From Polychytrium aggregatum (Eukaryota; Chytridiomycota; Chytridiomycetes; Polychytriales): a stretch of 64,000 bases of DNA. Below are positions 16,548 to 64,000 of this stretch, piece by piece. The position numbers and the translations under genes were made by a program. Every line of letters starts with the position of its first letter. Position 1 is the first letter of the stretch. The stretch covers positions 417,824 to 481,823 of the forward strand of contig NW_026516235.1 in the NCBI RefSeq assembly GCF_025602895.1, in the 5' to 3' direction. The notes under the pieces are model-generated. The model saw only the letters and a program-made list of their open reading frames with translations. It was not told the DNA's origin and searched no databases.

Positions 16548-17164
16548 TGGTCCATGGCCACCTTTGGTTTCGGCAGCGCATTTCCAGTAGCCATACTGCA
16601 TCGCGGCCGCCTCTCGTTGCGACCAGCGATTTCTTGGCTGAAGCTGGGCTGAGCGACTGGGAGCTCGTGTCGTCGATTGCACTCCGGCCTTGCAGCTCAG
16701 CCCTTCTTTGCCTCGACAGAGTGGACTTGCATTCGTAATCTGCGGTTCCGTTTTCCCGAAGCGGCTGGTTCCCTGTCCAGGCCCACTCAGAGTGCTGTGA
16801 TTGCAGCACCACCAACACCCGCTTTTTCCGAGTTCACTGCTCGGGGACCGATCTTGGCCATCTCCGCACTCACATAAAAGGCAGGTCCGCAGCACCGCTC
16901 CTGCACCGCCACGGCCCTGGCCGACAAGGGTGTCCGCGATGCCGCTCTCCCGCCAAGAAACCCAGACTCTGGGCCAATCGCAAATATCGATCAACGCGGA
17001 GGCTTGCCGTCTCCTCCCTCCATGTGCCCTCTTGGCGGTCCGGATGTGCGACTCCCTCGACAACCATTCCGTCCATAAAACGCCGATCGCCTGCCGCCTG
17101 TCCCTGGCGATCCACATCCGATCTCCAACATCCCGCCTCTGGTTGTCCAGCATCCCTATTCGCT
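16548..17164. other. Upstream region of the copper monooxygenase gene
   Basis: No supported gene. Probably holds the promoter and 5' UTR of the gene starting at 17165. Confidence 0.4.
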
Positions 17165-20784: not shown

Positions 20785-23697
20785 TCAGTTGTCGAGGCCC
20801 TCTGGCAGCTGGACTCGGCTCGAGATCGCCTGGATGTCCGAGATGTACTCGTCTTGCAGACCATCTCCGTCGGTGCCAGAGACAATCGACAAGATATCTT
20901 CGATGAGGGCGTGGTTGCCTAGGACTGAGAGTGATCCGCCCAGAATTCATTCAAGCACCATAAACAATGAAAAGGGTTAGACCAGGATGCTGTGGAGACC
21001 TCCCCCCTTCGTCTCATAATAATATGAGATCTAGATGATGTGAGGACGCACTTTTCGTGGACGCCGCGACAGCAGCGATAACCATCACACCAACGTGAAG
21101 TTCCCGGACCCCGTTGCTTCCACCCTTTGCACTCGCCAAATGCTACTCCGCAAGCATAGCCCACGCGATTGAGTCAACCAAAGACTCACTTTCGACATGC
21201 GTGCTTGTCGAGGGGCCACCTCGGAGGTTGGTGACTCCAAACTCGGAGCGATCGAGGTGTTCCCGTGTGATGACTTTGATGTTACGGGGATTGTACCGTT
21301 TCCGCTTCCATCCGTCGGCACACATGTACCCAAGAGAGATCAACGGGACAGTCGAATCGCTTCGGAAAGCAGAGGCGAGGGGCGAGGGGCGAGGTTACTC
21401 AGACGTGGCGCATTGACCCGCCAGAAAGATCGCCAACGGATCGGGCGCAGACATACTCACCCATCACTGAGCTGGAAGCCGTTTTCGATCGAGAGCTCCC
21501 TGTCGTTCACTGTGTAGTCAAGAACATAGCTCGAGTTGCAGTCCTTGGGAGTGTGTGCAAGGCACTGAGCCAGGGCGTCGTCCTTCAGGCTCCGCTGCTC
21601 GAACTTGTAAAAGTACTTGCGTTCAGTCTTCAGACCGACGCCGTACATGCAGTAGAGACGGAAATCGGCCTTTGTTCGCGGCAGCGGTGCCATAAGCGGG
21701 TTCGACCAGGTCGTCGGGTCGTTGACGGCATCACGCAGCTGCTGCTTGGATGTGGCGACCGACGAGAAGTTGCCGTAAGTCTTGGCCCATCGAGTCGTCA
21801 CAGCATCGCTGATGCGCGAGAGGACACGGTCGACGCTGGCGGTCGCGGTCATGTCCTCGGTGTACTGAGGGGTTGTTACTGTGATCATGGACGAGAAGGA
21901 AGTGACTTGCTCGGAAGGCGACCAACGATCTGCCTCGGGCTCGTCTGGGGCCGGCATTCCGGCACGGCCCCAGATGTACTCGCCGCCCTTTGGCAAGATC
22001 GAGGCCACACCGCCCCAGCTGCGGAATAGGGCCGCAAACTCGTGGCGAGGGAAGACTCGTTCTACAAAGGAGGCACCATAGAGGTTCAACTGGACAGTGT
22101 CTCGCATTTCGCCCGAGAGCAACGCCGAGACGGCCTTGGGAGCGCCCAGCATGGCGCCGGCAATGTTGACCCATCCATGGATGTACTTTTCATTCCAGTC
22201 GGCACCGCCGTTGCCGCCTTCGGGACTGGATACCCAGTGGAGGAAGTAAAACGTCAGACTGGACCCCATGGAATGTGAGATCAGCACGGCCTTGGCGCGA
22301 TCAGGGTTGGAGTTGACCATGATTTCAATCGAGGACTTGAGTCTCGAAAAGTATTGGTCGCGCTTTTCCATGTTGGCAAAGCCCAAGCGCCAGTCGTAGG
22401 ACGCAAGCATCACTGCAATCCAATCGTCGAGAGGCAAGAGGCACCGGGTCAGCGCAAAACATGGGTGATTGAGTATCAACAGCGGTAGCATGCGTTCCCA
22501 GAAATGTGTGCTCCCGGAAAAGCGTGCGGTTTGCGGGGCTTACTTTGGTTGTTGTCGTATCCGATGGCGGCAAAGTTTGAAATAAGCCTCGCAAATACCC
22601 AATAACTGCACATACAGAGCGAATGAGTGAGTGAGTGAGTGAGTGAGTGAGTGAGTGAGTGAGTGAGTGGAGTGAGTGAGTGGAGTGAGTGAGTGCGATG
22701 GCGCTCCTACCCTGGGAACAGATAGTCGGCCGCATCCAAGCCCTGTGCGGCGCGCAGCCGGAAGCCCGGTGGGTCCAAGCCCGTTTCCTCGTCCAGTTTC
22801 ATGTGGTTGATCCAGCAGTTCTTGTCCATAAGAATAGCCTGGAACTGGTTAAGGGTTCCCCAGAGTCGCTTCCGGAAGTACTTTTGGCCACAGCTCTGCT
22901 TTTGCTTCTGCTCGCCGCCGGAGATGTCGTTCCCATTCTTGCTGGCCAGGGGCGGATTCCAGGCCTCAAGGCCGGTTGACACGATGCCGGGTATCAGGAC
23001 GACGGGGTGCTGGAAGTCAAAGTCCCGAAGGACAACGTGTGCATCAGTGAATAGCGAGCAGCATGCTGGACCAAGGACATGCCGCTCGGACTCGCCTGCT
23101 GCATTGTGCACTGCTCCCTGCAGACAGTAGCGCCGTCATCTGCGGGCGCTGGGTGACTCTGTGGTCCTGGGCCAGCCTCTATCGCCCGCGTACCTTGGCC
23201 TGCATTCCCTGCTCTGCCAGGATCAGCCCAGGCAAAAACTCGCTGTTGGGATCGGTGTTGTCGCTGTTGGAAAAGAGCGAAAAGTTGGCGATCGAGTCTG
23301 TCAGGTTGCCGAGGACTTCGGAAGGTGTCATCAGGTTGGAGGAGTTGGGTAGAAGCGACGAGAGATCGACATCACCCAGTACGGTGTAGAGGTATTCTGG
23401 GATGTTGGTGAGGTTTGAAGGCGGAGGGAACTGGATCGGGGGCCCGTAGCGAGCTCCCAGCAGGGTTGTGAGAGCAAGACCCACAAAGATACCGCCAAAG
23501 AAGAACAGACGTCGATAGTCAAAAATGGTGGTGGTCTGGGTCAGAGGAGCCTCTTCAACCACAACGGCTGGCGAAGCAGCGGCCGAAGGGGCAGCAACGG
23601 GGCTCACGGCGCTGCTCTCACGAGGTGAGAGCGGCACCGTGAGGATGCCCGAGACGGAGCTTCTGTTTCTGCGACGGAGGAGGCCTTCTGAGGGCAT
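20785..23697 (-). CDS. LRO1: Phospholipid:diacylglycerol acyltransferase (LRO1/PDAT, LCAT family)
   Basis: Six exons close in frame to 744 aa: 23697-23194, 23117-22711, 22605-22544, 22412-21461, 21359-21190 and 20924-20785. A Ser-rich cytosolic tail and one TM helix (about residues 64-81, LFFFGGIFVGLALTTLLG) precede a lumenal LCAT domain: HPVVLIPGIVSTGLEAW (lid region), FRKRLWG, DKNCWINHMKLD, TGLDPPGF, YDWRLGF, the serine elbow SHSMGS (Ser about 372), NIAGAMLGAPKAVSALLSGE, catalytic Asp in GDSTVP, and His in STHVEILGNH. The family moves the sn-2 acyl chain from a phospholipid to diacylglycerol, making triacylglycerol in the ER. The start of exon 2 is the least certain boundary (chosen by phase). 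The intron at about 22606-22710 carries an (ACTC)n array. The annotated start is the first ATG. Confidence 0.92.
22623..22696. repeat. (GAGT)n microsatellite inside a PDAT intron
   Basis: About 18 tetramers, interrupted by GGAGT steps, ending GAGTGCGATGGC. The same end sequence follows the (GAGT)n array at 59981-60029. Confidence 0.9.
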
Positions 23698-34696: not shown

Positions 34697-35790
34697 TCAG
34701 ACCATGCTGTTTGTGGTCGACCCACGACCGCCAAACATGCTCGAGATCCGATCAGTGACAAGACCGCCGACAAAGCTTTGGAACATGCCTTGGCTTGCGA
34801 TGTAGTTTGTGACTTTTTTGCGCGCATCCTGAGGCATGGAGGCAATGGGGGCAGGGGAATGAGTACTGATCGTTCGAACCGACGCAGTGATCACACCGGG
34901 GACTTTCGGCATTGGCCGTGCAGGAGAGGATACGCTCGGTCGACGGCATGGACAGCCCAAGGCGAACACAGGCTACCTTTTCACACTTGGTGTATCCGAT
35001 AACGTTGGCCAGATTGAAGACAATGGCCACGAAAGTGACCAGCATCCATGTGATGTTGAACCGGATCAGGCATATGAAGGCAAAGAACACCCAGATCGCC
35101 GGAGCGGCGTACAGGGAGGTCCAAAATACCCACGAGTCGGTCGAGTTGACGACACGGTTCTGCGTTTTGGTGGAAATAGCAGCGATCCGTTGGGCATGGC
35201 CCGCAATGGCAAGCGGACGAGCAACGCTGGGTTAGAGATCGGAGACGATTCAAGAGAGCCACGGGCCAGCGACAATACCGCTTCGACTGTGCCAAAGCCG
35301 ACGCCCGTACGGCACTCGATCTTGGCAAGCGCCGGTCGTCATTACTCACCTGGGCCGATTCAAAAACCCACACGTTGGATCCGTCGTCCTTGATCTCGTT
35401 CCACCACCTCAAGCCCACCAGGAGTCGACCAGAGACATTTTTGACGGTCCAGAAATCGAAAGCCAGCAACAGAACGATCACCACGAAGGGAAAGACAAAG
35501 CTGCTCGTGAAGAAGCCACACAGAACGTATGTCACGATGGCCGCCCCACGAAAGAAGAGGTGAAAGAAGAGGACATATGGGTGGCTGGGTGGAAAATATG
35601 GTACCTTGGTCAGTAGTTGCAGAGACAGATGGCGGAATGCTGCTCCCTTGGGGGTGCAGCTACCTGGACAGATGGAATATCGACTTTTGAGCCGGTGTTG
35701 TGGCTGAGCCGGCGCCTTGCGGAGCCGAGTCCAGCCCCGCAATAGGCGCTGCGTTGTCGATGAGACCGACTCGATCGCTCTGGGCGGCAT
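34697..35790 (-). CDS. TVP23: Golgi membrane protein TVP23
   Basis: Exons 35790-35350, 35159-34977 and 34828-34697 close in frame to 251 aa. The conserved core is unmistakable: [56 protein letters not shown], then [20 protein letters not shown] and [21 protein letters not shown], ending [15 protein letters not shown]. Four TM helices are seen. TVP23 is a late-Golgi vesicle protein acting with YIP4/YIP5 in trafficking. The model is about 50 residues longer than the family at the N-terminus. Another frame over 35660-35890 also looks coding, so the true first exon may differ from the start given here. Confidence 0.88.
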
Positions 35791-36267
35791 CGAAACACCG
35801 GCGCAGCACCGTTGATTGTTTGGAGAGCGAAAGAGAGATTAGTGCTCCATCCGGCCGGAGAGCGCCGTCGCCAACGGGAGAATCCATCAACGGGACAAGG
35901 GGGATGGTGTATGAAGGTGCTCAGGGTATCGGGTAGCGAATGGCACAGCGTCGGCTGCAAGCACCCACATTCCCGGCTCGTATCAACAACAGCTCACCAT
36001 TTGGTCTTGAGTTGCGGATGGGAGGGGGAGATGGCGATGCAATGCTGGGCGGCGCCGCCAGCCGAGATGGATGCTGGCCAGCCAACAACCCTGGCATCGC
36101 GCCTTGCCATGAGTGCATTCCATTGCGGTTCGAGCCGCGTTCTTGGCACGGATCGATTCCTTGCCAAGAGCGTCCCAGCCAAGAGAATGCCCATGCAGGG
36201 CGGTGTCTATCAAGCGAAATTCATTTATACTGGTCTTTTTGTGGCTGGGGCGAAGCGGGGGGGCCAC

Positions 36268-46868: not shown

Positions 46869-47407
46869 GAACACGATGATAACTAAGAATGGAGAAGAAC
46901 TTATATTTTGCTAATCAAGGATAATTTCAAGGTATGAACTATCAAGAACTGATGAGGATGAAGGATGACAAGCAATATGAAGGTCAGGCACGATGGCATG
47001 AGGAAATTATGAAGAGAGGAAGACCTTTATCGAGCAATGTACGAATGACGAAAGAAATTGGCAAATCAGAATGGAATGGATCAGTTTTCAACACAGGAGA
47101 CGTGGATCAAGGCATGGGCGGCTCCGAAAAGCGAGCGAGGAGGAGGAGAGGGATTGGCTTGGGCCAACTCCAGAGAATGGGGGCAGGCTTTGATGGGAAG
47201 TGTGGCTCAAAGAGGAGCAGACTGATTGATAAAGGATCGCGAGCGACACAATCGAAGCGATTAACAGAGCCGAGTCGGGGGAAGCTTGGGGACATTGAAA
47301 GGGCGTCGGTGAGACTCGGAGCCAGCACAGGAACGGGAAGAGAAGGATCAAAGTTCGACAGAAAATTAATAATTTATATACGATAAAAAATTTCCATTAG
47401 TATCCTC

Positions 47408-47479
47408 GGGGCCTTGGCGCAACGGTAGCGCGTCTGACTCCAGATCAGAAGGTTGTCGGTTCAAATCCGGCAGGCCTCA
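47408..47479 (+). tRNA. tRNA-Trp (CCA)
   Basis: 72 nt, no intron. Acceptor stem GGGGCCT pairs with AGGCCTC (one G-U), discriminator A. The anticodon arm CTGA-CTCCAGA-TCAG gives anticodon CCA. The T arm contains GGTTCAAATCC, a canonical B box. Only 8 bp separate it from the next tRNA. Confidence 0.95.
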
Positions 47480-47487
47480 ACCCTCTC

Positions 47488-47560
47488 GGCCGCATGGCCA
47501 AATGGATAAGGCGCTTGACTACGAATCAAGAGATTCCAGGTTCGACCCCTGGTGTGGTCG
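47488..47560 (+). tRNA. tRNA-Arg (ACG)
   Basis: 73 nt, no intron. Acceptor GGCCGCA pairs with TGTGGTC, discriminator G. Anticodon loop CTACGAA gives ACG (read as ICG). T arm CCAGG-TTCGACC-CCTGG. A T-rich terminator follows at once. Confidence 0.95.
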
Positions 47561-47600
47561 CTCTTTTTCTTTTGCTTCTGAGGGATTTTTTTTTTCTTTC
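47561..47600 (+). terminator. Pol III terminator (oligo-T)
   Basis: CTCTTTTTCTTTTGC right after tRNA-Arg, then a run of nine T. Confidence 0.7.
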
Positions 47601-49314
47601 TTCATTGTGCGCCGCCGTGGCGATGCACTAGTCATCAGGACCCCGTTTCTCGGGTCTGGTCCATCGTCAATTTGTTCGCTTATCGGAAATTTTGACCTTT
47701 TGCTTTAGTGCTCAGTTCCTGGTTCAAGTGTTGAGTCTGGACGTTTGCTGGCTGATCAATATCGGGCGCTGCATACATTCGAATATTCAAGCGGCTGACA
47801 GAGGCCCGACGACGCCATGATTTGCGGGCAATCACTCACTCATTAGAACAATAGCATTGTGGATTCGACCCCTCGCCCCAACACACTTTCTTATCGGCAA
47901 ATAACACACAAGCACGCACACTCACACACACATATATATATATACCCAAGGTTATTGAGTACTCTTGAATCTTTGTGTTGCTGGTACATTATCATCCGAT
48001 AGTTGAACCGCACTGGGCGCTGAGTAGTGATTGCATCCAAGATTTTCGACAATCACCTTCGACAGATATGGATCTTGGTCAAAATTTGTCGTTGTTCAAT
48101 GCACTATTCTATTAGCCTAGCTTTATCAATCTTGAATGGCCTTTTTGGGACTCGTATCAACCCAAGGCAGATATCGATGGCTTGTCCAATATAAGCAATA
48201 TCATCCAGCAGGTAGCGTGCCCTCGGGGGTTCAGAAGCATTTTTGGTGTTGATGCTCTCTATATCGTTCCGTATATTGATATTGGCGTCTTGGGTGGCCG
48301 TCTCACCCACAAGTATTGAAAATCCTGTCAGGTCGAGTGAGAGGAGCCCAAATTATTACAGGAATATCGGGCAAACTCGGCCAACGAAGGTTACCGCTTT
48401 TTTTATCACTGAAAATTGACCACCTTTGCACCGAACGTTCTGAAATCAATATAATTTTGTTTAGGCCTCTTCGGTCTTCAAAGTAGAGTATAGACGCGAA
48501 TTCAAATTTTAATAAAAAAATATTCCGCCTTCGAACAGCCTGGTGTCCATCATTCACCCAAGGGCAGTGGTTCCAATGGGTCCCTTTCGAACAGGCTGGC
48601 TCGCGATTTTGTCGGTCAATGAATCTCCAGGTTGGCTAGCTTTTTGCACCAACCACCATGGAAGACCGGCTGGAGCATCGCGTTGTTGGTATATTTGTTA
48701 GAACTCAGATAGGTACCTTACTCGGGAGCTGAGGTCGTTTCTTGCCCTGAATCATCGACTGCAGCACTTGAGGTAGATCCATTTTTGATGGACTGTAGTC
48801 GGAAGAGTAATAATGGAAGTGCTGGAAAATAGAATGAGAAAAAAGATTCATTTGAGCGACAGCACAATCAACATGCGATAGAGCCCCGCTTAGGCATAGA
48901 GTAGAACCAGCTCTGTGTACGAGGCTCACGTGAGGGACAGATCCACTCAGTTTGCTCGAGTGTACAAGTCAAGGCCAACTCTATGCTTGTATAGGACGAT
49001 TGCCAGTATTGCTCTTCACCTTTAGGGATCAACTAAACGATCAATCCAACTAGCCATCTTGTCGATTTCTGCTCATCTTGACGCGATGTTGGAAATCGAA
49101 AGCACTAGAATAGTCTCTCCGGCTCAATTGTAGTTTGGGTAGTGGCCGAAGCGGATACTCAGAAAACATAATATCAGAACATCAGACTATCATATTATTA
49201 TACCGTCAATGCAAATAGATAGGGTATATCCGTGCAACCAGGGATATCATAAAAGGCTATTCGGATTGGGAGGAATAATGGAAGCGGACCAACAGAACAG
49301 AGGAGCAAAAAGAG
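47601..49314. other. AT-rich gene-poor stretch between inverted tRNA pairs
   Basis: No supported gene. Contains CA/TA simple repeats near 47920-47945 and only short ORFs. Composition is clearly more AT-rich than the rest of the window. Confidence 0.6.
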
Positions 49315-49387
49315 CGACCACACCAGGGGTCGAACCTGGAATCTCTTGATTCGTAGTCAAGCGCCTTATCCATTTGGCCATGCGGCC
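49315..49387 (-). tRNA. tRNA-Arg (ACG), inverted copy
   Basis: Same 73-nt sequence as 47488-47560 on the opposite strand, including the ACG anticodon. An oligo-T terminator in the minus-strand direction lies at about 49302-49311 (AAAA AGAG on the plus strand). Confidence 0.95.
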
Positions 49388-49395
49388 GAGAGGGT

Positions 49396-49467
49396 TGAGG
49401 CCTGCCGGATTTGAACCGACAACCTTCTGATCTGGAGTCAGACGCGCTACCGTTGCGCCAAGGCCCC
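49396..49467 (-). tRNA. tRNA-Trp (CCA), inverted copy
   Basis: Same 72-nt sequence as 47408-47479 on the opposite strand, with the identical 8-bp spacer to tRNA-Arg. Confidence 0.95.
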
Positions 49468-51290
49468 GCCTTTTCACTCGATATTCAAAAAGTGTATATA
49501 TACTTTACATAATACTGTTTTAATCGATACTTTATTATTCACCCTCTGCTCCATTGCTGCAGGGCGATTGAAAAGACTTATGGATTCTGCTATATTTTTT
49601 ATTTTATAATATAAATTTTCTTAAGCTTTTGGTACGATGAAGTTCACCCCACTTTATCATATGATCAATGTGGATAATATTCAACACCGACAATAATTCG
49701 TACCACCAAATAATTAGATTGTCTGGAAAATATTTAGTGTAATCACTGCCCAACTGCAATGCTAAAATTATGAGCCACAAATATACCCAAGACCTCCAGA
49801 GATCTAATATGTGAACATGGCGAAGGATCAATTGCAACCAAAAGTCATCAGTCCAAAACAATCGCCCCAACTTTTGAGGGCATCATGGAGTATAAAGTGC
49901 CCTCTGTTCCTCCCCGATGTGTTAGTACTCCGAAACAATCTTCTAAAATAAATCTATCATCTCTTCCTTGAATGCTTTCACGTTTCAACCTTGAATTTCA
50001 CGGTACTCCCCGCTGGTTCGGCCTCTCAGCTCTTCAGCAATACAGAGAGCCCCAACAACGCCTCGTCCACCATGTTAATTAGAATGTATAGCCTATCTTT
50101 CCAAAAAATATTTTTCGAATAAACTCTGTTCTATCAAATCATCCATGCCGTGTCGTCTTTGTCTTTGTCTTGAATAATCTAGCAGCTCTGTACACTCCAC
50201 AGCAATAAAGACTATTCTAAAGGGATTAATACTGACGATCAAAGTCATTATATATACCTCAACAATGTCTATTCGATGTTGAGATAGTTGGATCTTTGGA
50301 TAATTGGCGAAATGTACGATACAAATACACTTCAGAAAGCTTTTGTCTCTACTTATATGGTCCTATTCAACATTTAAACTCAGGTGATACTGAATACGTT
50401 GAAGAAAGAGTAAAGTTATTACAGATCGTTGATCAAAAAAATTTCTTGAGAGAGTACAGAGTACATCTATAATACCTTTATCTAAAATGTGCCATGTATT
50501 AACAGTTACAGATGTGTGATTTTAATATTGATTTACTGGTCGACAGAAGGCCGTAGTGATGATTAGGTCTGCTAAGCTGGGTAAATGAGACGTTCTCAAA
50601 GTAATCACTGCTTCTACTACCAAGCACGAAATTTTATATCGAGGAGGTTCCAACATGGTGCACAGTACACATCATCGTGCATCATTGATTTAATCATAAA
50701 AGTGCGTAGCACAGACAGCCATGTAAAATAAATAAACAAATAAAATATGCGTATAATTAAATACTTTGCTGTCTCGCGTCAATATGAAGTATATAGAGTA
50801 CTGTGCGGTAGGACGATAAACAAATATTTGAATGGTGAGTTTAATGAAATTTTGATTCAGTATTGGCTTCGTTAATTCAAGACCTATATTGTTTATTAAT
50901 GCTCATTAGCATAATTATATTTTATCCCACTTAATCTTTTAGTCTGAATGCATAATATATTGATACGTGCACTGCTGAGCAGTTTGTTGATTTCCCTCAC
51001 ACATTATGACCTAATATGATAGTTATTCAGTGGCTAGTTCAGCTCTAGATCTGGTTCAAAAAAGACATTAGCCAAAACAGTAGGATAATTTGTCTAGCGT
51101 AGTATAGTGATTCGGTCGTCAGGCCCGTGTCATAACGACTTGAATTTCGGAAGTTAGCCTATCTATTATTCAACACAATCTATATGTTACTTGTTCTCTT
51201 ATCAACGGGTCACTTGGTTTCTTCTGATTTGTTCGGCTACATCCAGCGGTTGTTTGAGTTGGGCTGCTCTATCACAACGGATTTCCGTCC
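49468..51290. other. AT-rich gene desert
   Basis: About 1.8 kb of AT-rich sequence without any convincing ORF, RNA or repeat. The abrupt change to GC-rich DNA near 51240-51290 marks the broken edge of the LINE fragment to the right. Confidence 0.6.
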
Positions 51291-52254: not shown

Positions 52255-54408
52255 TCAGGTACTTGTTTGCTGCGATTGGTCAGCCCGAGGGGCTGCTGTC
52301 CACGACAGACATTTGGTTGCGATGTCATCCAGCACCGCCACGACATCCAGCCAGATCGCTGGTCTGTTGTTCAGTACTCGGCTGCGCTTGGCACGCCATC
52401 TTCTCTGTTTTTCAGGATCGGTGGTGAGTGGTCTTGTTGGCACTCGAGCCAACTTGGGGAGTGCGTCGATTGCAAGGTCGATGTAGGTGATGCCTTCGGG
52501 GATCGATGTGGGGTGAACATATTTCTCGAGTCGGTCCTTGGCTCGGACACATTCTGCTGCATGTTTTCTGTTGACATACACCTTGGGGCCGTTGGGTCCG
52601 GTCTTTTTGCACTCCTTGTCGGGTTTAGGTGGGAAACACCCGACTCGCCACAGGAGTATTCTCCTTGCTTGGGCAACTGTTGCTACTGGCATCCGCGCTG
52701 TCAGGATGGGGTCGCCTTCCCACTTGTAGGTGCCTGCGATCGACATTACTTTCTCGGGCTTCCGCTCTTTTTCAAAACTGTGAACGATCACCGCCTTCTT
52801 GATGGGTGTGCCGGTGCCAGTTCCAGATTCAAACAGGTCCAGTCTTGTTCTGTCTGGGGAGTCTCGGTGCTGTCTCTCGAGCTCCTTCCATGCGGCGCTT
52901 CCGGTCAGCTTGGAGAGTATCTTCTTGTTTGGGTTTCTTGGGGGCAACTCGGTGATGTACTTGAGCACGTGGGATCCAAGATATCCTGGGTCGTCTTTCC
53001 TGTCGAACCACCGTCCGAAGCACTTGATCATCAGTATCTGTTTTCTGGTCGCCATGGTGTAGATTCCTGTGGCTGTCATGACAGCCGGACCAGACGCGTT
53101 CTGGCGGATGTTGAGTGCCGATCGCAGTGTGTCCAGCATGCACCCCTGTAGAGTGTTCATTATCGGGCCCTTCATGTTGACGATGGCAAGGCCGTACTCC
53201 AGACGGGGCCGGATGAAAGCCTTGTAGATTTTGACGATCAGTCCAGGGTAGACTGACTTGCTGAAGATGCCGTGTTCCTTGAGCTCTTTGGTTCGGAACT
53301 GGGCTTTGTGCTTTAGTTGAGTGACGTGGGCCTCTGCGTCGATGCCATCAGGGCCGAACTGCACCCCGAGGTACTTGTAGGTGCTGGTGACGAAGCTAAG
53401 AGGTGTTCCCTTGAGTGTGATTGGGGTCGGGTTTGCTTCCGCGGTAAGCACTTCGCATTTGGTCGGAGAGAAAGCGTAATTGTTTTCGTCTGCGTGTGCT
53501 TCGGAGATGTCAACAAGTCTTTGGAGGTCTTCTTGGTTTTTTGCTACCAACGCCATGTCGTCCGCGTACATGATATTGTTGATGATGAGGTTCCCTATTC
53601 TGGGTGATGTGACTGCTCGTAGGTTCTGTGCGAGGTCATCCATGAAGAGGCTGTAGAGGGTGGGTGAAAGAACCGACCCTTGCAGCAGCCCGATCTCCAG
53701 CCAGTACGGCCGGGATTTGGTGCCGCTCACGAGAACAGCGGTGGTCACGTTGTCGAAGAGCGCGCGTAGGATGCGGATGGTATGCGGGGGGATGTCTCGT
53801 TGCTCGAGTTTGTGCCAGAGCCGATCCCGGTCAACTGAGTCGTACGCGGCTTTGATGTCCATGAACGCGATCCACGGGGTGTGGCCGTCGTTCTGTAGGA
53901 ACTTGACGATTGAATCGAGTGCGAATACCTGGTCCAGGGTTCCCCTGTTGCTGCGGAAGCCTCCTTGGGAGATGTCGATGGGGCCCATCTCCTGGAGGAG
54001 TCGGCTATGTAAGATCCTTTCGAATACCTTTCGGACAACTTGTAGCAGAGAGATCGGGCGATAGTTCTTGATGTCCTCTTCTTCGCCCTTCTTCTTCCAG
54101 ATGGGGTGGTTGATGGCGACATTCCATTCTTGAGGGACGATGCCGGTCCACATGCACCAGTTGAAGAGCTGACGCAGCCAATCCGAGACTTGGTCGGTTA
54201 CTGGGTGTAGGAGCTCGGCACTGATCCCGTCGGACCCAGGGGCCTTGTGTTTCCCCATGCGTCGGATGGCTGTTTTTACTTCTTCTGCTGTGATTTCGCG
54301 GCCCAAGAGGCGACTGAATAGTATTTCCTGAGGACGCGGTGTATCGTTGGCTTCTTGAACACCGAGACGACTTGAGATGTTCCCAAAGTGGGCCCGGTAC
54401 TGGTCCAT
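52255..54408 (-). pseudogene. LINE ORF2, reverse transcriptase part (separated by a frameshift)
   Basis: Contains all RT motifs: GKHKAPGSDGISAELL, NYRPISLLQVVRKVFERIL, FMDIKAAYDSVDRDRLW (motif A Asp), QGSVLSPTLYSLFMDDL (motif B), IMYADDMALVAKN (catalytic YADD) and YKYLGVQFGPDG. A C-terminal Cys/His motif follows (C...C...RKHAAEC). No RNase H domain is obvious. The frame overlaps the endonuclease ORF and lies in another phase, so one small indel near 54280-54410 has split a single polyprotein. Confidence 0.88.
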
Positions 54409-55754
54409 GCTGTCTTGGTCTTCGGAAGAATCGACCGGTTGAAGAAGCCGCTTTTGACCTTGTCTCGCTTGCTGATTTCCTTGAGGAGCTCAGAGTCCGA
54501 TTTGGTGGAGAGAGACTGGGCCCAGGTGTTGTAGAAGGCGCGTTTCTGTCGTCGTATGAGGTCCTTGAGTTTGTTGTTCATGTTTTCGTAGTCGGCCATG
54601 GCCTGCAGTTGGATTCTCGAGCCTTGTGGCGACTGGTTCACGATTCGATAAGCCGTGTTTCGTCGTTTCTTGATGTCAGCCATTTCCGGGGTCCAAAAGC
54701 CGTTGCGGGGAGCCGGGCCATCCTTCTTTCGCTTCCCAATGACGATTTGTGCCACCGCTGTGACGTGGTTCTTGATGATATTCCACCCAGATTCAACGAG
54801 GGCTTCGGCGTCTTCGCGTGCCATGGGTCCATCCTCTTGTGGTAGCCGGGTTCCCAGCTGTGTGATCTGCTCTACGACTACTGGGTGGTGGACTCTAAAG
54901 GCTTCCGTGTATTGCTGGAGGGTTTCGGGATCTTCGAGCTTGTTGGTTCGCCACACGAGGATTGGTGGGCGGGCAGGCTCTCTGGCGGCGTTCCATTCAA
55001 GTTCCATCGACACCATGCGGTGGTCTGAGTTACAGGTATCGTTGGAGTGGACCGTCACCGTCTTGGCGTTGTGTCTCAGTGCCGTCGAGACAAAGAAGAG
55101 GTCCAGTACTGAGTGTTGTGGTTTCTTCCCGTTGACGACGTGGGTCCAGTGTTGCCCCGTGGGGTTGGTCGAATCCACGAATTCCAGGAAGCCGCCCGCT
55201 ACAGCTGTCCGCAGTGGTTGCAAACGGTTGGCGGTTTCATGGGTGTCTCTGCTTGTCTGGCCCATGCGGGTGTTGAAGTCGCCCATGATCACAGATGGGA
55301 TAGGATTGTTCATTTCTGTGGTGTTGGTCTTGATGGCCGACAGGGCTTCTCGGAACTTTTGCAGGGCTGCCGCATTGGCTGATAGAGCAGGCTTGAGGTA
55401 GAAAGATCCAAAGACGATGCCTCGGAACTTGAACCAGATGCTCGTGTGATGAGGTCCAACGCGGAAGTTGCTAAAGTCTTCGAGGTTGGTGGTTTTCGGG
55501 TTCCGAATGAGGGCGATTCCTCCGGTGCCTCTTGCGAGGCCGTCGACAGAGACATACGGCTCTCGGGTTTCGAAAACTATGAGGTTCTTGTAAGGTCCGA
55601 TGGATTGCTGTGGTTTGAGCCACGTTTCTTGGACTGTTATAAAGTCGAGGTCTTTTGCTTTTACCATTTCGATAACCTCGTGTATAGAGGTTTCAAGTCC
55701 GCAGACATTCAGGGTCGCGAACCTAATAGTGGGCGTAGGTTGGGGCTGCATCAT
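54276..55754 (-). pseudogene. LINE ORF2, APE-type endonuclease part
   Basis: Starts MMQPQPTPTIRFATLNVCGL. Endonuclease/exonuclease/phosphatase motifs are all present: TLNVCGL (Asn), VQETWL (Glu), VIMGDFNTRMGQ (Asp/Asn) and NDTCNSDHRMV (Asp-His). The start ATG overlaps the ORF1 stop as ATGA at 55754-55751. The frame shifts before the RT part; the residues after about 54410 are out of frame. Apart from that indel the element looks intact. Confidence 0.88.
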
Positions 55755-57367
55755 TTGCGGGGAGGAGTGGTTCCTTCGCGTCCGCCTTTTTCTTGGCGGC
55801 CTGGTTTGTTGCGAGCCAGTTCCTTCGCCTTAGCAGTGATCTGCTCGGCGACGGCTGGGTCGTTCATCTTCCGTTGGTACAAGGTCGCCGTGAGGAGGTC
55901 ATTGGATTCCGCACATATCCTGGCAGCGCGTTCAATGAAGCTCTTGATTTGGAGCTTCTTGGACTCCTTCTCGGCCTCGGTGATCTTCGACACGTCCATG
56001 TGTGCGACTTCAGTGAATTTCATGTCCGTAATGTGCTTCAAGAATTCTTCTCTCGAGCTCTTGTCTCTGAGAACAAACTCACAGACGCTGTTGTTGACAA
56101 AGCTGATATTGAGAATCTGGTTGGTGGCAAAGCCCCTCTCCTTGAAAGCTTGTCTGATCGTACGGTAGCTACCCCGAGGGATACCCTTGACGTAAACCCA
56201 AGCGGCGTTGTCCATCCTATCCTTTAAGGGTCCTTCCTCGACAGGGACCGAGGATCTGATCATCCTGAATGGCGTGGCAGTCTTGGGCACCAGCCACTTG
56301 CCGTCGGTGGGGTCACGGCCGCGGAGGATGGCGCCGATGGCCTCGTTCTTCTTGCCGGCATCGGCCTCCTGGTGGACTTTTTCGAGGGCCGCCAGCTTGC
56401 GCGCGTCGATTGTCTTGTTGTCGGGCTGCTTCTTGGCACCCCGCTGGGCGGCTGCTGCGTAGGATGTCGGAGCTGGGCGTTCCGAGATGGCCCGGGACGC
56501 ATGCTCCAGCTCGGAGGCGAGCGTCTGCATGCACTCGGTGGCGCTCTGGGTCAGGGCCTTGATTCTAGCAGCTTCCTCGGGTTTGCTGAGGTCCAGCTTG
56601 GCGAGTTCTTCGTTAATCTTCTGAGCTTTCTTGAGAAGCTCACTCTGGATGTGCTGAAGCTGCTGTTGGGGACTCTGCTTCTTGCGCATGTCGGTGGCGC
56701 AGACGCGCTTCCCGACAGCCCTGGCATCGGCGAGGGAGGCCCGTTGTTCGAAAAGCTTCCATCCGGCTTCGTCATGGCGGGTCATCAGGCCCCAGAATAC
56801 GAGGATGGAAAAATGCTTCCCGCATTCTTCCACCTTGGTGGCGGCGTCCGGGCTCATCAGCATGTTCTTGCAGACGACCGAGTGCTGGGCGTCGTCGATA
56901 CGCCAGGCGGGGGGCTTGCTCCCTCTGCAACGGGAGCATTGAACTTGGTCTGCCTTCAGAGCGAAGACAAACCTAAAGCGGCGGTAGGTGATGTCTTTGA
57001 AATCGACCGGGATGAAGTCCTGGTCGGTGAGAGTGTTGTTCTTGGCCTTCTCGAGGATCGAGAGGGCCCACTTCTTTTCTTCAACCACGTCGGGCGGGTT
57101 GGGAAAGATTGCCGAATCTGCATAGAGCTCTTCGATAATTTCTTCGACGGTCTTCTTGCGACCGACGTGCAGCTGGATGGGCTCACCATCCCTGCGGTGC
57201 TTTTTGGTGGGTGCTGATTCGGTGGCCTCGGTGATACTGGCGCTACTGACCTGATGGCCGTTGCTTTCTAGGCTGCGATTTTCGTCCGTTTGGCCTGGTT
57301 CTTGGGCAGCAGGGCTGCCCGAGGTGTCTATGGCCATCTCGTTGATGGCCGTTTGGGTCGGGGGCAT
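55751..57367 (-). CDS. LINE ORF1 protein
   Basis: First in-frame ATG at 57367 (MPPTQTAINEMAIDTS); the frame is open upstream from a TTG at 57448. About 538 aa: a charged N-terminal region (HVGRKKTVEEIIEELYAD), a central segment with paired cysteines (CSRCRGSKPPAW...CKNM...CGKHF) that may bind metal, an Ala/Lys/Glu-rich coiled region (about 57190-56450 in genomic order), and an RRM-like fold hint (WVYVKGIPRGSYRTIRQAF, ILNISFVNNSVCEFVL). The C-terminus is basic (KKADAKEPLL-type composition). LINE ORF1 proteins bind the RNA and act as chaperones. ORF2 begins at an ATGA overlap, which suggests termination-reinitiation. Confidence 0.85.
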   Translation of the reverse strand: MPPTQTAINEMAIDTSGSPAAQEPGQTDENRSLESNGHQVSSASITEATESAPTKKHRRDGEPIQLHVGRKKTVEEIIEELYADSAIFPNPPDVVEEKKWALSILEKAKNNTLTDQDFIPVDFKDITYRRFRFVFALKADQVQCSRCRGSKPPAWRIDDAQHSVVCKNMLMSPDAATKVEECGKHFSILVFWGLMTRHDEAGWKLFEQRASLADARAVGKRVCATDMRKKQSPQQQLQHIQSELLKKAQKINEELAKLDLSKPEEAARIKALTQSATECMQTLASELEHASRAISERPAPTSYAAAAQRGAKKQPDNKTIDARKLAALEKVHQEADAGKKNEAIGAILRGRDPTDGKWLVPKTATPFRMIRSSVPVEEGPLKDRMDNAAWVYVKGIPRGSYRTIRQAFKERGFATNQILNISFVNNSVCEFVLRDKSSREEFLKHITDMKFTEVAHMDVSKITEAEKESKKLQIKSFIERAARICAESNDLLTATLYQRKMNDPAVAEQITAKAKELARNKPGRQEKGGREGTTPPRK

Positions 57368-57456
57368 GTGGAGGGGGGTCGTTGGTTGAGAGTGTTGAGC
57401 GGTTTGTTGATAAAAAGAGCGACGGAGAGCCTGTGCCTGTGGATCCAAAAGTTGAG

Positions 57457-57487
57457 ATCAAGGTCAAGCTCGCATGGTTGGTCCAGT
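57457..57487. repeat. Right target-site duplication of the LINE
   Basis: 31-bp copy identical to 51976-52006; continuous with the rest of the tRNA-Gly gene. Confidence 0.9.
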
Positions 57488-58396
57488 GGTAGAATTGCCG
57501 CCTGCCACGCGGCAGACCCGGGTTCGATTCTCCCGGACCATGCACATTATTTTTCGCCTCCAGCAGACATCCCTGCCGGCTGGGTCGGTCAGTATCATCT
57601 CCCAGGATTTGCTTGTCGGGCTTGTGTGCCACAAAAGATCGCAGCTTCTTAATAATCTAATGGGTCATATCTCATATCGATTAATTGTCTTGGTTACGCT
57701 GCGTCCAGCTTTCTTTCTTTTTTTCGATTCGGGATTGCGAACATACCTTCTGGACATACACGAGCCACCGGGGTCGTGTGACACCTCGATCTTATGCTGT
57801 TCATTTTACGTGGAATTGGATAGCTCGATTTGCGACCGAGACTAAGAGTCAGTTAAAAGCTATTGTACTGCAACAGTGCGTTGGTGAGGCTTTGAATCGG
57901 GGTTTTCATCCTGAAGGTACTGATATTGGTGGGACTGAAACATCTTCACGTTCAGATTTGGAAGGAGCGGATTTTATTGCCAAATGTAAAGCTTGGATGC
58001 AAATTCGGACCGCTAGACAGTATGGTTTCAGTGTACTGCATATTTTATCGAGTACCTTTTTATGGAAGTGCTCTATGCGTACCTAATCTTGCTACACAGG
58101 CGCTCTCAGGATCGGGCCCTGTCCAGACCGGGACCAAATCAGGCCGACATCCATGCAAGCGCACAGCTCCATCTCGTAACCGGCGTTTTCACCGTCGATG
58201 GCTTTCTTTTTAAGAGCGCTCGAGTGTCATTTGTGTTTAACTCGAATGGATCGCCAGTTTGTCCTTTATGTGCATCTCTTCCACAGCGTGCGCGTCGGTC
58301 GTACGTCATAACAACGATCGTGTTCACGACCAAACAACCGAGCAGTCGGGATCAGCATCGCAGACTGTTTCTTTTGTTTGGGTATGACATCATCCA
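57463..58396. repeat. Left arm of a long inverted repeat
   Basis: About 934 bp nearly identical in reverse complement to 63069-64000 (window edge). It includes tRNA-Gly at its outer end and about 800 bp of unrecognised DNA with ORF fragments (for example AIVLQQCVGEALNRGFHPEG). The arms differ by a few 1-3-nt indels, mostly in homopolymers. Confidence 0.92.
57472..57544 (+). tRNA. tRNA-Gly (GCC), copy 1, with abnormal T loop
   Basis: Acceptor GCATGGT pairs with ACCATGC, discriminator A. Anticodon loop CTGCCAC gives GCC. The T arm reads CCGGG-TTCGATTCT-CCCGG: a 9-nt loop instead of 7, and a B box GGTTCGATTCT with the last base changed. The gene is 73 nt against 71 in copy 2. It is probably impaired, unless the two bases are an assembly error. 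Confidence 0.85.
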
Positions 58397-58874
58397 CTCC
58401 TGGGGTGTCTCGTCGTCCTCTTTGTCCTGGTACAGCTGTATGTGGGATTCCCTGAGGTGTTCCAGCCTTTGCCTTTATACTAACATTTGGCACCCAAGCA
58501 GTGTCCATCAAAACGTTGCATGGAAGGCATCCGTATTCCACCACACCAGCCTCACGGCTATCGGTGTGGTATTCACGATCTGAACTGGGTCCAAGCTGGT
58601 CCAAATACTCTTCATATTCTTCCCAACGTTCAAGCTGTTGGCAGTTGCTCTCTATAGTGAACGATATGTGTGGGTTTCAGATCATCATCGATCCCTTGAA
58701 GGGGAGGATATTAAGGCCCGATTCGCTACCAAATCATTGTTCTTGCCTAAGGTCATGATTGATACTAATGATATATTTGAATCCATGGCCCTGGTCTGTG
58801 CAGCGCCCGCCAGTTCGGCCATGTGGTGCCTGAGGATGGCCCGCATCCGATCCATCAAGCTCGGTGCCCATTGA
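57545..58874. other. Unrecognised DNA beside tRNA-Gly
   Basis: Inside and beyond the left inverted-repeat arm. ORF pieces on the + strand (about 57685-58086 and 58062-58583) have no family I know; a CPLC motif occurs near 58262. It could be a decayed mobile element. Confidence 0.4.
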
Positions 58875-61800
58875 TCACTCCGACTGGTCGTTCGCTGATT
58901 TGCGATCTCTGGGTTCATTGGTGCCGGTGACGCTTGCCTCGAGCAGCCCAAAGACGGTCTTGTCTCGCTTTGCGGCTCCTCCAAGGCCGCTGATTCCGCC
59001 GACACCCTTCACGGCGGCAGTGCCGGCCTTTGCCTTGACGTCGGCATAGTTGGCCATGAACGAGCCGGCGGTGTCCTTTGACCCAAACTCGAGTGTATAC
59101 GTCACCTTGTTGCGGCGGACCCGGACACTTCGAGCCAGGACCTTCTCTGCATCGGGGTCGCTCTCGGGGTCGCAGAGCTCGCACTCGCACGATGAGAATC
59201 GGAAGCTGACCTGGATGGTCCCGTCCATGTCGGACTCCCGCATCTCGATCAGATCCAGGTTGGTGAAGACCAGGACCGTCGACGACACCCAGGCGCCTCC
59301 AAACTTGAGGCCCTGCAGGCCGCAGTCGTAAGCATAGGCGACGATCGAGGCTCTGGCCATGCCTTGGCTTGTGACGGACGACCGGTTGGTGGCAGCCGGG
59401 GACGATCTCTGCGTTTGCTTCTCGCTGTCGTTCCCGACTGGCTTGTGCTGGAGCACCTTGAAGAGCCTTGTGCTGAAGAGGATGATCGGGATCAAGGACG
59501 AGACCATGATGACCAGACACGAGAGAATGATCCTCCCGACGACATAGAGGCCCTGCGAGCTCAGCTCCTCCGAGAGCGCATACACCATCGGCAGACACAG
59601 CAGCAGCGTCATCGACACCACATAGCTGCACAGTCCGATGACCCTGGACTCTTGGAAGCGCTCGTGGGCGCCTCTGGTCAGATATGCAAACACCACACAG
59701 CCAATCAGGATGGCTCCGTTCAGGACATAGATCAGGATCTCGGGGGCGGCCATGGAGCCGTGAGCCGAAGCGCACACCAGGGCGTAGAAGCTGCCCTCGA
59801 CCACGGCGGTGGGACTGCCGATGGCGACCCAGGCGACGCAGACCACAATCTCGATCCCGACGATCATGGCAGAGGCGAGGATGAGCTTCCAGTCGGGGGT
59901 CTTGATGGTGCGGATGCGCTTGTATCCAAAGATGATGTAGATGCGGATCGACTTCATGAGCAGCATGCTGGATGCACAGGGAGTGAGTGAGTGAGTGAGT
60001 GAGTGGGTGAGTGAGTGAGTGGGTGAGTGCGATGGCCGATTGTATCGACGACTGGTGCTGTCCACAAGTGAGTCCCAGCCATGTCGATGAAGCAACATTG
60101 CGGTGGTGTTCCAGAGCGTGAGACCCCAACAGCACCATACCTGAACACGGACGAAAACGCAATCACCGGGAGGAAGATGCGGCCGGCACAGACCAGGGGA
60201 CTCGGATCGGCCGAGAAGAAGAGTGCGGCAACCTGGCCAAACACTGGTTGTTCGAGGCAGCGAGCGAGTCGACGACGACATTGAGCAAGATGATGTAGCA
60301 ATGCAGGACAGCACCAGCACCCATCGCACCCATCGCACCCATCGCACCCATCGCACATCGGCAACTTACAGGCGCCGGCCATGATCACATAGCAGCAGTT
60401 GGGCGAGATCGCCTGTATGTCCGGCTTCTTCCTCCACAGGACAATCAGCGTCAAGATCCCGGTATTGATCAGCACCGTGACAATCAGCAACACCAGCATC
60501 ACAATATTGTCCGAGTCCAGGTTGTTGAAATGGATCATGAATGGCGCCGATGGCTCCGAGCAGTCCAGTTGCTGGTTGTTGTAGTAGCCGACGTCGCAGA
60601 TGCACTCGATTATCGACGACGACTGGAAGGGGCCGTCGATGATGCAGTATCCGTGCTTGCAAGAGCTGGCGCTGACATAGATGTTGTTTGAGTCAAAGTA
60701 CGGATTGCAGGGCGAGGTTGGGTCATACAGAGACTGGCCGCCCTGGGTGACCAGCATGAAGGCATCGTAGGCGAACTGGCGGATGTTCGGGTCGGTGTAG
60801 TGGACAAAGTTGTATTGGTTGAAGTACGTGGCGGTGGACGGCGATGCGATCGGCTCGGTCGAGAGAGTCTGGCGATCGTATTTGCCAAGGCAAGGCCGGT
60901 GGTGCAGATGATGTTGATGATGTCGGTGGTGCCGATGGTAATGAAGTTGATGACAACACAGCAAGATGCCAGACCAGCGAGTATCGCAAATGGTATCGAA
61001 TCGACCATGAGAACGGGCGGTGAGCAGGCGCGAGTCATGGTCAGTGCTTTGGTGCTGTCGGTGCTTTGGTGCTGTCAGCGCCGGCGCAACGATTGGAGTC
61101 AGGTCAACGACTACTCACCGTCTGAGTGCCGCCGAATATGATCCAAAACAAGAATCGCAGGGTGGCTTGGATCTCTGCGGCGCTGACCCCATACAGCTGC
61201 GAGTCTTGGCGCAGAATGAAGAAGGTCGGTTCCATGAGGGGATAGGCATTGGGGACACTCGAGTCGAGGTAGCTTGACTGGATGGCGTTTCCGATGTCGT
61301 TGGAGATGTGTCGCAGGGCCGAGATGTTGGTCGTGATGGGGGGGGAAGAAAGAGCAGCCTGGGCGGGGAGGAGAGTCGGTGGCAGAGGACCATCAGCTCC
61401 GTGACTCGCTGGACTGTGGATGTGCGTTGATGTGTGCACACAATCACCAGCTCGAACAGGATATCCAGTGATGTGGGTGGGACGATCATGGTCGCGCTGA
61501 TACCATCGAGGCATCGGGTGCGCAACGAATCCCAACCCACAACGGGGAGGGGCGAGTGGATCGCACTTGCCTTCATCGTCTGCACGGATGGAGCGACAGT
61601 GTCGCCGTTCTTGTTGATGATGTTAGCGATCCCGTACAGATTGAAGCTGGATGCCATTCCAGATAGGGTGGCGTTCACATATGGCAAATCGACATACCCA
61701 ATCGAAAACGGTACGACTTGGACGCCGTCCGACAGGATGCTGTCGCTTGAACCATAAAGAGGAGTATTTGCAGGGCCCCAGGTTGGAAGCGGATAGTATC

Positions 61801-62749
61801 GCGTCCCAGTGAGATTCAGGGTGGGATCGAACTTGTTCAAAGCCGAGAGGAAGTTTGCCGTCAGTCCAGCAGTACCACTATTTACGATCGTTTGGATACG
61901 CGCAGTGATCGTGGTGAGGTTTGGATTGTTCTGGGTGAGGCGGGTGTCGTTCCAGAAGGCAATCTTGCCACTGAAGATGTCGGCCAGGTTCTGCCGAGTC
62001 AGCGTGAGATTGGTGACGTTGAGGTGATATACGATGGCAATGCAGCTGGTTTCCCCGTCATCGCGAGGATAATCAAGGAACAAGATTCAGTCCACGGGTC
62101 GCTGTGATTCCACGAGCCACAGCACCAGGCCGTGATTCCACTGAATCAACAACGGCGAACACATGTCCATCCGGGCGTTGCCACAAGCACAACTTGGAAT
62201 CGCAGTGCCCGGGCACATTCGAGCAAGGAATGCGGAGTCATTCCCCCATCAAGCAAACAATATTTCCAGCTGGTGCGATGGCAGTTAGATGAACGCGCAC
62301 AACAACTGACCTTGCCGCAACTGGGACGGGAACAAAATGCCCGAGAGTGTTTCCTGGCCCCGTATACGAAACGTTGGAGGGAATCACATCGATAGCGGCC
62401 CATGTCAGGTTCGGAGCACCGGCCGCAAGAGCAGCTCGAGCTGCTCCGGAGCCGGCATTCGTATAATTGTAGTCCCAACCCGGATCATAATTCGAATAGA
62501 CACCGGAGAGGGCCAAAAACAGGGATGAGGGGGGATTGGATCCGATTCCGCCAATGATCACGTTCGGTTGCTGACAGAATGCGCCTGTGAGACGTGTCCA
62601 GGTCATATCAAGGGAACAGTCCGAAAGAAATCAGCTTCTCGTGTTTGTAATTCATGAGGGTGTGCTCAGTCCATATCATGCGACATCATGTTACCGAGGC
62701 CAGACAGCAAGGGCAGGAGCCAGAGCAGGCACGAGTTGAGGATGGTCAT
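58875..62749 (-). CDS. Chimeric receptor: PstS-like phosphate-binding ectodomain plus class C-type 7TM domain
   Basis: A signal peptide (MTILNSCLLWLLPLLSGL, 62749-62695) splices to 62584. The ectodomain follows the type-2 periplasmic-binding fold of PstS: NYTNAGSGAARAALAAG, WAAIDVIPS, CIAIVYHLNV, LTRQNLADIFSGKIAFWND, NPNLTTITARIQTIVNSGTAGLTANFLSAL, and VQVVPFSIGYVDLPYV. A Cys-rich EGF-like stretch (CKHGYCIIDG...ECICDVGYYNNQQLDC) comes next. TM segments are IVMLVLLIVTVLINTGILTL, CYVIMAGA, SAMIVGIEIVVCVAWVAIG, PEILIYVLNGAILIGCVVFA, VIGLCSYVVSMTLLLCLPMV and RIILSCLVIMVSSLIPIILF. A cytosolic tail of about 190 residues with a beta-rich segment ends at 58875. Exon borders between 59990 and 62300 are approximate. 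Confidence 0.82.
59981..60029. repeat. (GAGT)n microsatellite in the PstS-receptor intron
   Basis: About 12 tetramers (some GGGT) ending GTGAGTGCGATGGCC, the same junction as the array in the PDAT intron. Confidence 0.9.
60319..60356. repeat. 9-bp tandem array in receptor intron
   Basis: Four to five copies of CACCCATCG directly beside a splice site of the PstS-like receptor gene. Confidence 0.85.
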
Positions 62750-63068
62750 GATAGCGACGCGACTTGAACAGCGATGGAGACCCGAACGAGAGGTGATAGT
62801 CTCAAAGCCTTTCGAATAAGCTCTTCAAGCGATGGAATGGATCGTCGGCGCGGAGGATCTTGATAACTTTCAATAGATATTGGACAGGAAGAATACTGGG
62901 TCAAGTCAAACAGCCGATGAAGGAAGGAGAATCTCCTTAGTTGGAAGTATAATTGATGAGGCTCAGTGTCCAGGCCCGAGAAAAGGAGGTGATCACAAAG
63001 TCAAGCCTCATCCAGACGCAAGCTCCTTGACAGAGGCAGAAAACCCAGAAGATGATTCAATTCAAGAT
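62750..63068. other. Upstream region of the PstS-like receptor
   Basis: Probable promoter and 5' UTR, running up to the right arm of the inverted repeat. More AT-rich than the gene. No ORF supported. Confidence 0.4.
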
Positions 63069-64000
63069 TGGATGATGTCATACCCAAACAAAAGAAACAG
63101 TCTGCGATGCTGATCCCGACTGCTCGGTTGTTTGGTCGTGAACACGATCGTTGTTATGACGTACGACCGACGCGCACGCTGTGGAAGAGATGCACATAAA
63201 GGACAAACTGGCGATCCATTCGAGTTAAACACAAATGACACTCGAGCGCTCTTAAAAAGAAAGCCATCGACGGTGAAAACGCCGGTTACGAGATGGAGCT
63301 GTGCGCTTGCATGGATGTCGGCCTGATTTGGTCCCGGTCTGGACAGGGCCCGATCCTGAGAGCGCCTGTGTAGCAAGATTAGGTACGCATAGAGCACTTC
63401 CATAAAAAGGTACTCGATAAAATATGCAGTACACTGAAACCATACTGTCTAGCGGTCCGAATTTGCATCCAAGCTTTACATTTGGCAATAAAATCCGCTC
63501 CTTCCAAATCTGAACGTGAAGATGTTTCAGTCCCACCAATATCAGTACCTTCAGGATGAAAACCCCGATTCAAAGCCTCACCAACGCACTGTTGCAGTAC
63601 AATAGCTTTTAACTGACTCTTAGTCTCGGTCGCAAATCGAGCTATCCAAATTCCACGTAAAATGAACAGCATAAGATCGAGGTGTCACACGACCCCGGTG
63701 GCTCGTGTATGTCCAGAAGGTATGTTCGCAATCCCGAATCGAAAAAGAAAGAAAGCTGGACGCAGCGTAATCCAAGACAATTAATCGATATGAGATATGA
63801 CCCATTAGATTATTAAGAAGCTGCGATCTTTTGTGGCACACAAGCCCGACAAGCAAATCCTGGGAGATGATACTGACCGACCCAGCCGGCAGGGATGTCT
63901 GCTGGAGGCGAAAAATAATGTGCATGGTCCGGGAATCGAACCCGGGTCTGCCGCGTGGCAGGCGGCAATTCTACCACTGGACCAACCATGCGAGCTTGAC
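63069..64000. repeat. Right arm of the long inverted repeat (runs to window edge)
   Basis: Reverse complement of 57463-58396 with few differences. The match is still running at 64000, so the true outer end is beyond the window. Confidence 0.92.
63921..63991 (-). tRNA. tRNA-Gly (GCC), copy 2, canonical
   Basis: 71 nt. Acceptor GCATGGT/ACCATGC, discriminator A, anticodon GCC, T arm CCGGG-TTCGATT-CCCGG with canonical B box GGTTCGATTCC. The upstream flank GTCAAGCTC is the same as at copy 1. Confidence 0.95.

Follow-up and report, generated by a model that had tools for sequence, protein, structure and literature searches.

How far the ligand-binding part of a class C receptor can be exchanged while its seven transmembrane (TM) helices are kept is the question raised by a gene near the end of a 64-kb stretch of the Polychytrium aggregatum genome (contig NW_026516235.1; this whole stretch of 64,000 nucleotides is the window, and positions are counted from its first letter). 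Class C receptors are usually described as a type-1 flytrap carried on seven helices. The initial annotation had read the gene as a bacterial-type phosphate-binding protein of the PstS kind, with a type-2 flytrap, fused to a class C-type seven-helix receptor, and had proposed that it represented a distinct receptor class, possibly sensing phosphate. We confirmed the observation of a gene that combines such a flytrap with seven helices, and the interpretation placed on it was partly supported. As judged from the sequence, the gene probably encodes a class C-type (glutamate family) receptor with a PstS-derived type-2 flytrap that has been retooled for a small ligand other than phosphate.

The coding region lies on the minus strand, from an ATG at 62749 to a stop codon ending at 58875, which is to the base the span 58875-62749 of the initial annotation. 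The spliced model has seven exons and six introns and holds one frame through 912 residues (Table 1); because splice sites were picked by reading frame and protein likeness, the exon structure is a model. The introns measure, in order, 110, 265, 212, 250, 126, and 173 nt, and five of the six are GT-AG, with intron 3 being GC-AG (donor AAG/GCAAGT, the slash marking the exon end). Simple tandem repeats (GCGATGGGT units and CTCA runs) are found in introns 5 (60369-60244) and 6 (60140-59968) on the minus strand. From the N terminus, the parts of the protein are a signal peptide, a PstS-like type-2 flytrap, an epidermal growth factor (EGF)-like stalk, a class C seven-helix domain, and a tail; helices and signal peptide were called from hydropathy alone.

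The N-terminal half matched PF12849 (PBP_like_2) over residues 31-328 of the spliced protein (62.2 bits against a cut-off of 27, E = 8.9e-17), and the unspliced exon 3 by itself exceeded the same cut-off (32.7 bits, E = 8.7e-8). The model of PstS, TIGR00975, spanned the flytrap at 99.4 bits (E = 1.9e-28; positions 7-332, with the query starting at residue 25), and we place the flytrap at residues 31 to ~356. The GSG, LADIFSGKI.FWND, and IQTIV.SGTAGLT..F blocks on which the initial annotation had relied are all present, the GKI.FWND and SIGYVD core blocks are well conserved, and the AYPLMEPTFFIL block of exon 4 pairs with AYPI/AWPI..TF of PstS in an alignment with six bacterial PstS-like proteins (alignment A1), to which the flytrap is 22-26% identical. 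These six were among seven proteins taken from the 14 records matched in a tblastn search of plasmids, 10 of which have pstS annotated beneath the match and 4 of which have no annotation there (the seventh protein, L007, was omitted, its listed frame starting inside the protein). When the flytrap alone was searched against PDB sequences, 22 of 30 rows were phosphate-binding proteins, including one putative (9l8j); the eight human immunodeficiency virus envelope chains in the same list (E = 0.11-1.4) were taken as chance. Single-protein searches for flytrap relatives confirmed 0 of 58 pattern matches in genome contigs and 0 of 10 in viral contigs.

Structure prediction, which the initial annotation had named as a check on the fold, was applied within the flytrap to its largest exon, exon 3. 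The 158-residue exon 3 model, folded together with 19 viral PstS pieces (from 80 loci, 49 were chosen and translated and 19 were kept after a similarity filter; these are also the comparison rows of alignment A3), reached a mean predicted local distance difference test score (pLDDT) of 80.3 and a predicted TM-score (pTM) of 0.80, with residues 82-94 below 50. Used as a Foldseek query, it returned 32 PDB rows at E ≤0.001; ranks 1-21 were all taken by phosphate-binding proteins or PstS, with TM-scores to the query of 0.65-0.78 and root mean square deviations of 2.5-6.6. Taken together, PF12849, TIGR00975, the PDB sequence matches, and the exon 3 model support a PstS-type type-2 flytrap.

The evidence for the membrane half is of the same kind. 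PF00003 (7tm_3) matched residues 469-709 (122 bits against a cut-off of 33.5, E = 4.4e-35), and exon 7 passed this cut-off unspliced and by itself (72.5 bits, E = 5.5e-20). Hydropathy gave seven peaks within residues 473-713 (TM1 to TM7) in addition to the signal-like peak at 3-21, together with a weaker, overlapping cluster at 98-125, inside the PF12849 match. When the whole protein was compared with PDB sequences, 95 distinct sequences matched at E ≤1; among the 60 matches listed, 56 were metabotropic glutamate (mGlu) or calcium-sensing receptors (CaSR) aligned to the seven-helix half and 4 were PstS proteins aligned to the N-terminal half, the best seven-helix match among those listed being mGlu2 (E = 6.3e-15). 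Cys533, Cys614, Lys554 in TM3, and Glu655 at the start of TM6 align with class C marks in mGlu2; we take the two cysteines to be those that link TM3 to extracellular loop 2 and the TM3 lysine and TM6 glutamate to be marks of class C. The class C assignment of this half stands on the family match, the receptor matches, and these conserved residues. Neither a type-1 ANF flytrap nor the nine-cysteine domain is among the four Pfam rows of the protein (listed to E = 10, although the HMMER filters discard most rows above E ~0.1), and we therefore file the receptor in the wider 7tm_3 family rather than in the mGlu/CaSR branch.

Between the two halves, six cysteines (Cys402, 418, 423, 437, 439, and 451) form the stalk. 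The signature CICDVGYYNNQQLDC at residue 437 satisfies the pattern C-x-C-x(2)-[GP]-[FYW]-x(4,8)-C, which we take to be the EGF-like signature; Pfam gave the stalk one weak Pvs28 EGF row (12.4 bits against a cut-off of 26). The Pfam rows DUF6404, Pvs28, and V_ATPase_I, all below their cut-offs, were set aside as chance. The cytosolic tail gave no NCBIfam row and no PDB sequence row to E = 10. A single-sequence model of its last 189 residues (58878-59444, minus strand) had a pLDDT of 44.5 and showed strands followed by a helix; in Foldseek, it returned 0 rows at E ≤0.001 (best, 0.059). With no match in sequence, family, or fold, and with so poor a model, the pleckstrin homology (PH)-like order of strands and helix is merely an impression. 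In viral contigs, 0 of 5 candidate relatives of the seven-helix half and tail were confirmed.

Since each family is already found on a single unspliced exon, the domain matches are far beyond chance. No unspliced exon carries both Pfam matches, however: exon 4 contains the end of PF12849 (residue 328) and exon 5 the start of the membrane half, so that the splice model could in principle have wrongly joined two adjacent genes, one for a secreted PstS-like protein and one for a separate seven-helix protein. Reading on past exon 4 would end the first protein at ...TQTVSSR-stop, and third-position guanine-plus-cytosine content is lower in exons 2 (0.53) and 3 (0.66) than in exons 5, 6, and 7 (0.84, 0.76, and 0.82), a rise that might point to separate origins for the two halves and does not by itself mean two genes. 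Against this, the frame is preserved across the GTGAGT donor of exon 4 and the intron of 250 nt that follows, and reading back in the frame of exon 5 met no in-frame methionine before a stop. A membrane protein of its own would thus require an additional first exon, which is conceivable, or would have to start without a signal peptide at a methionine inside exon 5 (in QFAYDAFM). Similar fusions in Plasmodiophora are, moreover, described as single coding regions on transcriptome evidence (PMC4815078). We consider two genes very improbable, and the seven-exon model, which joins both halves in one frame as the initial annotation had supposed, is retained.

What the flytrap binds is a separate matter. 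In Escherichia coli PstS, phosphate is contacted by Thr10, Phe11, Ser38, Asp56, Arg135, Ser139, Gly140, and Thr141; Asp137 belongs to the loop that carries the last four. Here, Thr10 and Phe11 are replaced by Asn35 and Pro36, Ser38 corresponds to Ser64, and Asp56 corresponds to Asp84, the last depending on the alignment. In the loop, alignment A3 sets Asn165 against Arg135, Gly167 against Asp137, Ala169 against Ser139, Gly170 against Gly140, and Leu171 against Thr141. The Arg, Asp, Ser, Gly, and Thr of this loop are conserved in all 19 PstS rows of A3 and, by eye, in all six bacterial rows of A1, and a protein with N, G, A, G, and L in place of R, D, S, G, and T falls outside the PstS phosphate-loop pattern. 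Arg135 and Asp137 were lost in every alignment made, Ser139 and Thr141 were lost in all but one, and residues 160-175 include no charged residue. A phosphate loop without its charged residues makes some other small ligand more likely than free phosphate, which on the sequence appears an unlikely ligand. Thus, the initial annotation was right that the loop is altered, and phosphate as the ligand is unsupported by the binding residues.

Several observations weigh against this conclusion and would suit a true phosphate receptor, in which the flytrap would still take up inorganic phosphate, or an anion close to it, as its ligand and the seven-helix half would report phosphate outside the cell. In one of the five printed alignments, that with 5wnn, the SGT of the receptor meets the SGT of PstS, so that Ser, Gly, and Thr are kept, although Arg and Asp are still lost. 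Ser64 occupies the place of E. coli Ser38 in the alignments. Of the four printed alignments that cover Asp84, two (4lvq and 1qui) pair it with Asp56, and in the other two and in A1 it is offset from the PstS aspartate; the serine and the partly matching aspartate mean that an anion site could be partly retained. The closest flytrap relatives in the collections searched are PstS proteins, and it was the same domain likeness that led to the assignment of phosphate to Plasmodiophora fusions (PMC4815078). The PstS derivation itself must be set against the equivalog cut-off of TIGR00975, 205 bits, of which the flytrap falls well short, and against the 19 PstS rows in the alignment behind the exon 3 model, which bias that model toward a PstS fold. 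Because the Arg135 and Asp137 counterparts are gone from every alignment, the Thr10 and Phe11 positions are changed, and the loop region is uncharged, we regard a phosphate receptor as unlikely, and a PstS-derived flytrap retooled for another small solute remains our preferred reading.

Two further explanations would change the role of the protein rather than its ligand. PstS serves as the binding component of an ATP-binding cassette (ABC) importer, and the authors of the Plasmodiophora study named their fusions transporters (PMC4815078); the present protein might, as they proposed for theirs, be a transporter that carries its own solute-binding domain. Its membrane half is, however, a 7tm_3 receptor domain with the class C marks kept, and its four Pfam rows include neither an ABC ATPase nor an ABC permease. 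No transport activity is known for the 7tm_3 family, and we give a transporter very little credence. The loss of several PstS ligand residues, together with ten sequons before TM1 (two more follow TM7), might instead be read as a flytrap that has given up solute binding and serves as an adhesion or dimer scaffold, but the good conservation of the GKI.FWND and SIGYVD core blocks speaks against this, and we hold it to be the least probable of the alternatives.

If the protein is a receptor for a small solute, it would reside in the plasma membrane and expose the flytrap to the outside; the solute would close the two lobes of the flytrap, the EGF-like stalk would transmit the movement to the seven helices, and these would activate a heterotrimeric G protein. 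A more specific proposal can be made, namely, a class C branch in which the PstS flytrap has switched from phosphate to a new ligand with little or no charge, the EGF-like stalk provides the coupling, and a small, undescribed domain in the tail, with the PH-like order of strands and helix, anchors the receptor to the membrane or a signaling partner; taken as a whole, this proposal is rather doubtful.

The receptor gene lies between the arms of an inverted repeat at least 0.95 kb long (942 identities in 960 alignment columns), which could be a segmental duplication or an effect of assembly. By tblastn, there is no second copy of the receptor within the 64-kb window (five rows were the gene itself, and the rest had E ≥0.69). 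The Pfam scan took 20 of the 62 window frames of at least 180 codons; of these, six gave a row at E ≤0.01, none of the six being a second receptor. The spliced gene and a LINE-type element give the window a eukaryotic look, whereas the receptor architecture, being shared with Plasmodiophora, does not by itself point to a chytrid. The left arm of the repeat is adjoined by a long interspersed nuclear element (LINE)-type element on the minus strand (its frames span 52258-57457), the open reading frame 1 (ORF1)-like frame of which begins 15 nt from a tRNA-Gly gene, bringing tRNA-targeting elements to mind. Elsewhere in the window, a second inverted repeat (47407-47568 and 49307-49468; 162 nt, 100% complementary) carries a tRNA-Trp and tRNA-Arg pair in each arm, and further frames with Pfam rows are LCAT (21460-22539, minus strand), a CH domain (4952-5833, plus strand), and DUF846 (34984-35838, minus strand); a frame at 16739-17683 (plus strand) has a DOMON row below its cut-off.

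Table 1. Coordinates of the receptor gene model and of the repeat and LINE-type features beside it
Feature	Position	Strand	Content
Exon 1	62695-62749	-	Start codon and signal peptide, residues 1-18; hydrophobic peak at 3-21
Exon 2	62311-62584	-	Opening part of PstS-like flytrap, residues 19-109; GIGSNPPSSLF and NAGSGAA blocks
Exon 3	61571-62045	-	Flytrap core, residues 110-268; LADIFSGKIAFWND and altered NSGTAGLT loop
Exon 4	61119-61358	-	Flytrap end, residues 269-348; GC-AG intron before it; AYPLMEPTFFIL block
Exon 5	60370-60868	-	Linker, six-cysteine EGF-like stalk (Cys402-Cys451), TM1, start of TM2
Exon 6	60141-60243	-	Last part of TM2, extracellular loop 1, TM3 including Cys533
Exon 7	58875-59967	-	End of TM3 to TM7, cytosolic tail of ~200 residues, stop
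Inverted repeat, left arm	57463-58420	+	Flanks receptor gene; tRNA-Gly(gcc) at 57472-57545
Inverted repeat, right arm	63045-64000	-	Runs off window end; tRNA-Gly(gcc) at 63920-63991
LINE RVT_1 frame	52258-54489	-	
LINE endonuclease frame	54279-55829	-	Different frame from RVT_1
LINE ORF1-like frame	55754-57457	-	No Pfam row; begins 15 nt from tRNA-Gly

In the spliced model, PF12849 lies N-terminal to PF00003 in one protein, and this architecture is not new. Krishnan et al. (2012, PMC3251606) list SPPG_06488 of Spizellomyces punctatus as a glutamate-family receptor with PBP_like_2 (PF12849), and other glutamate-family receptors in the same list carry LysR_substrate, OpuAC, or SBP_bac_1. A 2016 genome study of Plasmodiophora brassicae (PMC4815078) describes seven proteins in which 7tm3 is combined with an SBP or PBP domain, PBP_like_2 being one of these domains, and assigns four gene models to phosphate; that study calls the fusions unique to P. 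brassicae, but the 2012 Spizellomyces listing means that the build is not. Almost half of the class C receptors of gut fungi are reported by Seppala et al. (2016, PMC5168858) to bear type II domains. Thus, the distinct receptor class suggested by the initial annotation does not hold, and by its domain architecture the gene is a further member of the PBP_like_2 plus 7tm_3 receptors. Liu et al. (2025, PMC12842992) assign 918 fungal receptors of the glutamate type to class 16 and find it enriched in Blastocladiomycota and Chytridiomycota; in a 2026 review (PMC13308352), this class is entered as uncharacterized. In the literature consulted, no tested ligand is given for a type-2 class C receptor, and in PMC10445921, PBP_like_2 was met solely in the abbreviation list, from which we make no claim for amoebae.

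The members with a type-2 flytrap suggest that a different binding fold is able to drive one and the same membrane part; if so, the way in which flytrap and helices are coupled must be tolerant. The P. aggregatum gene offers a well-defined case of a type-2 class C receptor, with a loss in the phosphate loop that can be checked, and its likenesses to known systems are divided. With bacterial PstS (TIGR00975; 8ods, 5wnn, and 2abh), the flytrap shares the type-2 fold and the core blocks, whereas it differs in its low identity, its altered phosphate loop, its score below the equivalog cut-off, and its junction with a membrane domain. The metabotropic glutamate receptors have the same seven-helix half and class C marks, but the receptor described here is without a match to their type-1 ANF flytrap or nine-cysteine domain. 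The gut-fungal class C receptors are alike in that a type II flytrap replaces ANF, the nine-cysteine domain gives no match, and some EGF-like domains are present; they are unlike in that their type II domains resemble sugar-uptake proteins and their EGF-like domains occur on receptors with a pectin-lyase fold (PMC5168858). The Plasmodiophora fusions, with PBP_like_2 or SBP_bac_1, likewise place a prokaryotic substrate-binding domain on 7tm3, to judge from their description, and differ in being read as transporters by their authors (PMC4815078). SPPG_06488, likened here by its domain description, shares with the P. aggregatum receptor the pairing of PF12849 with 7tm_3 (PMC3251606).

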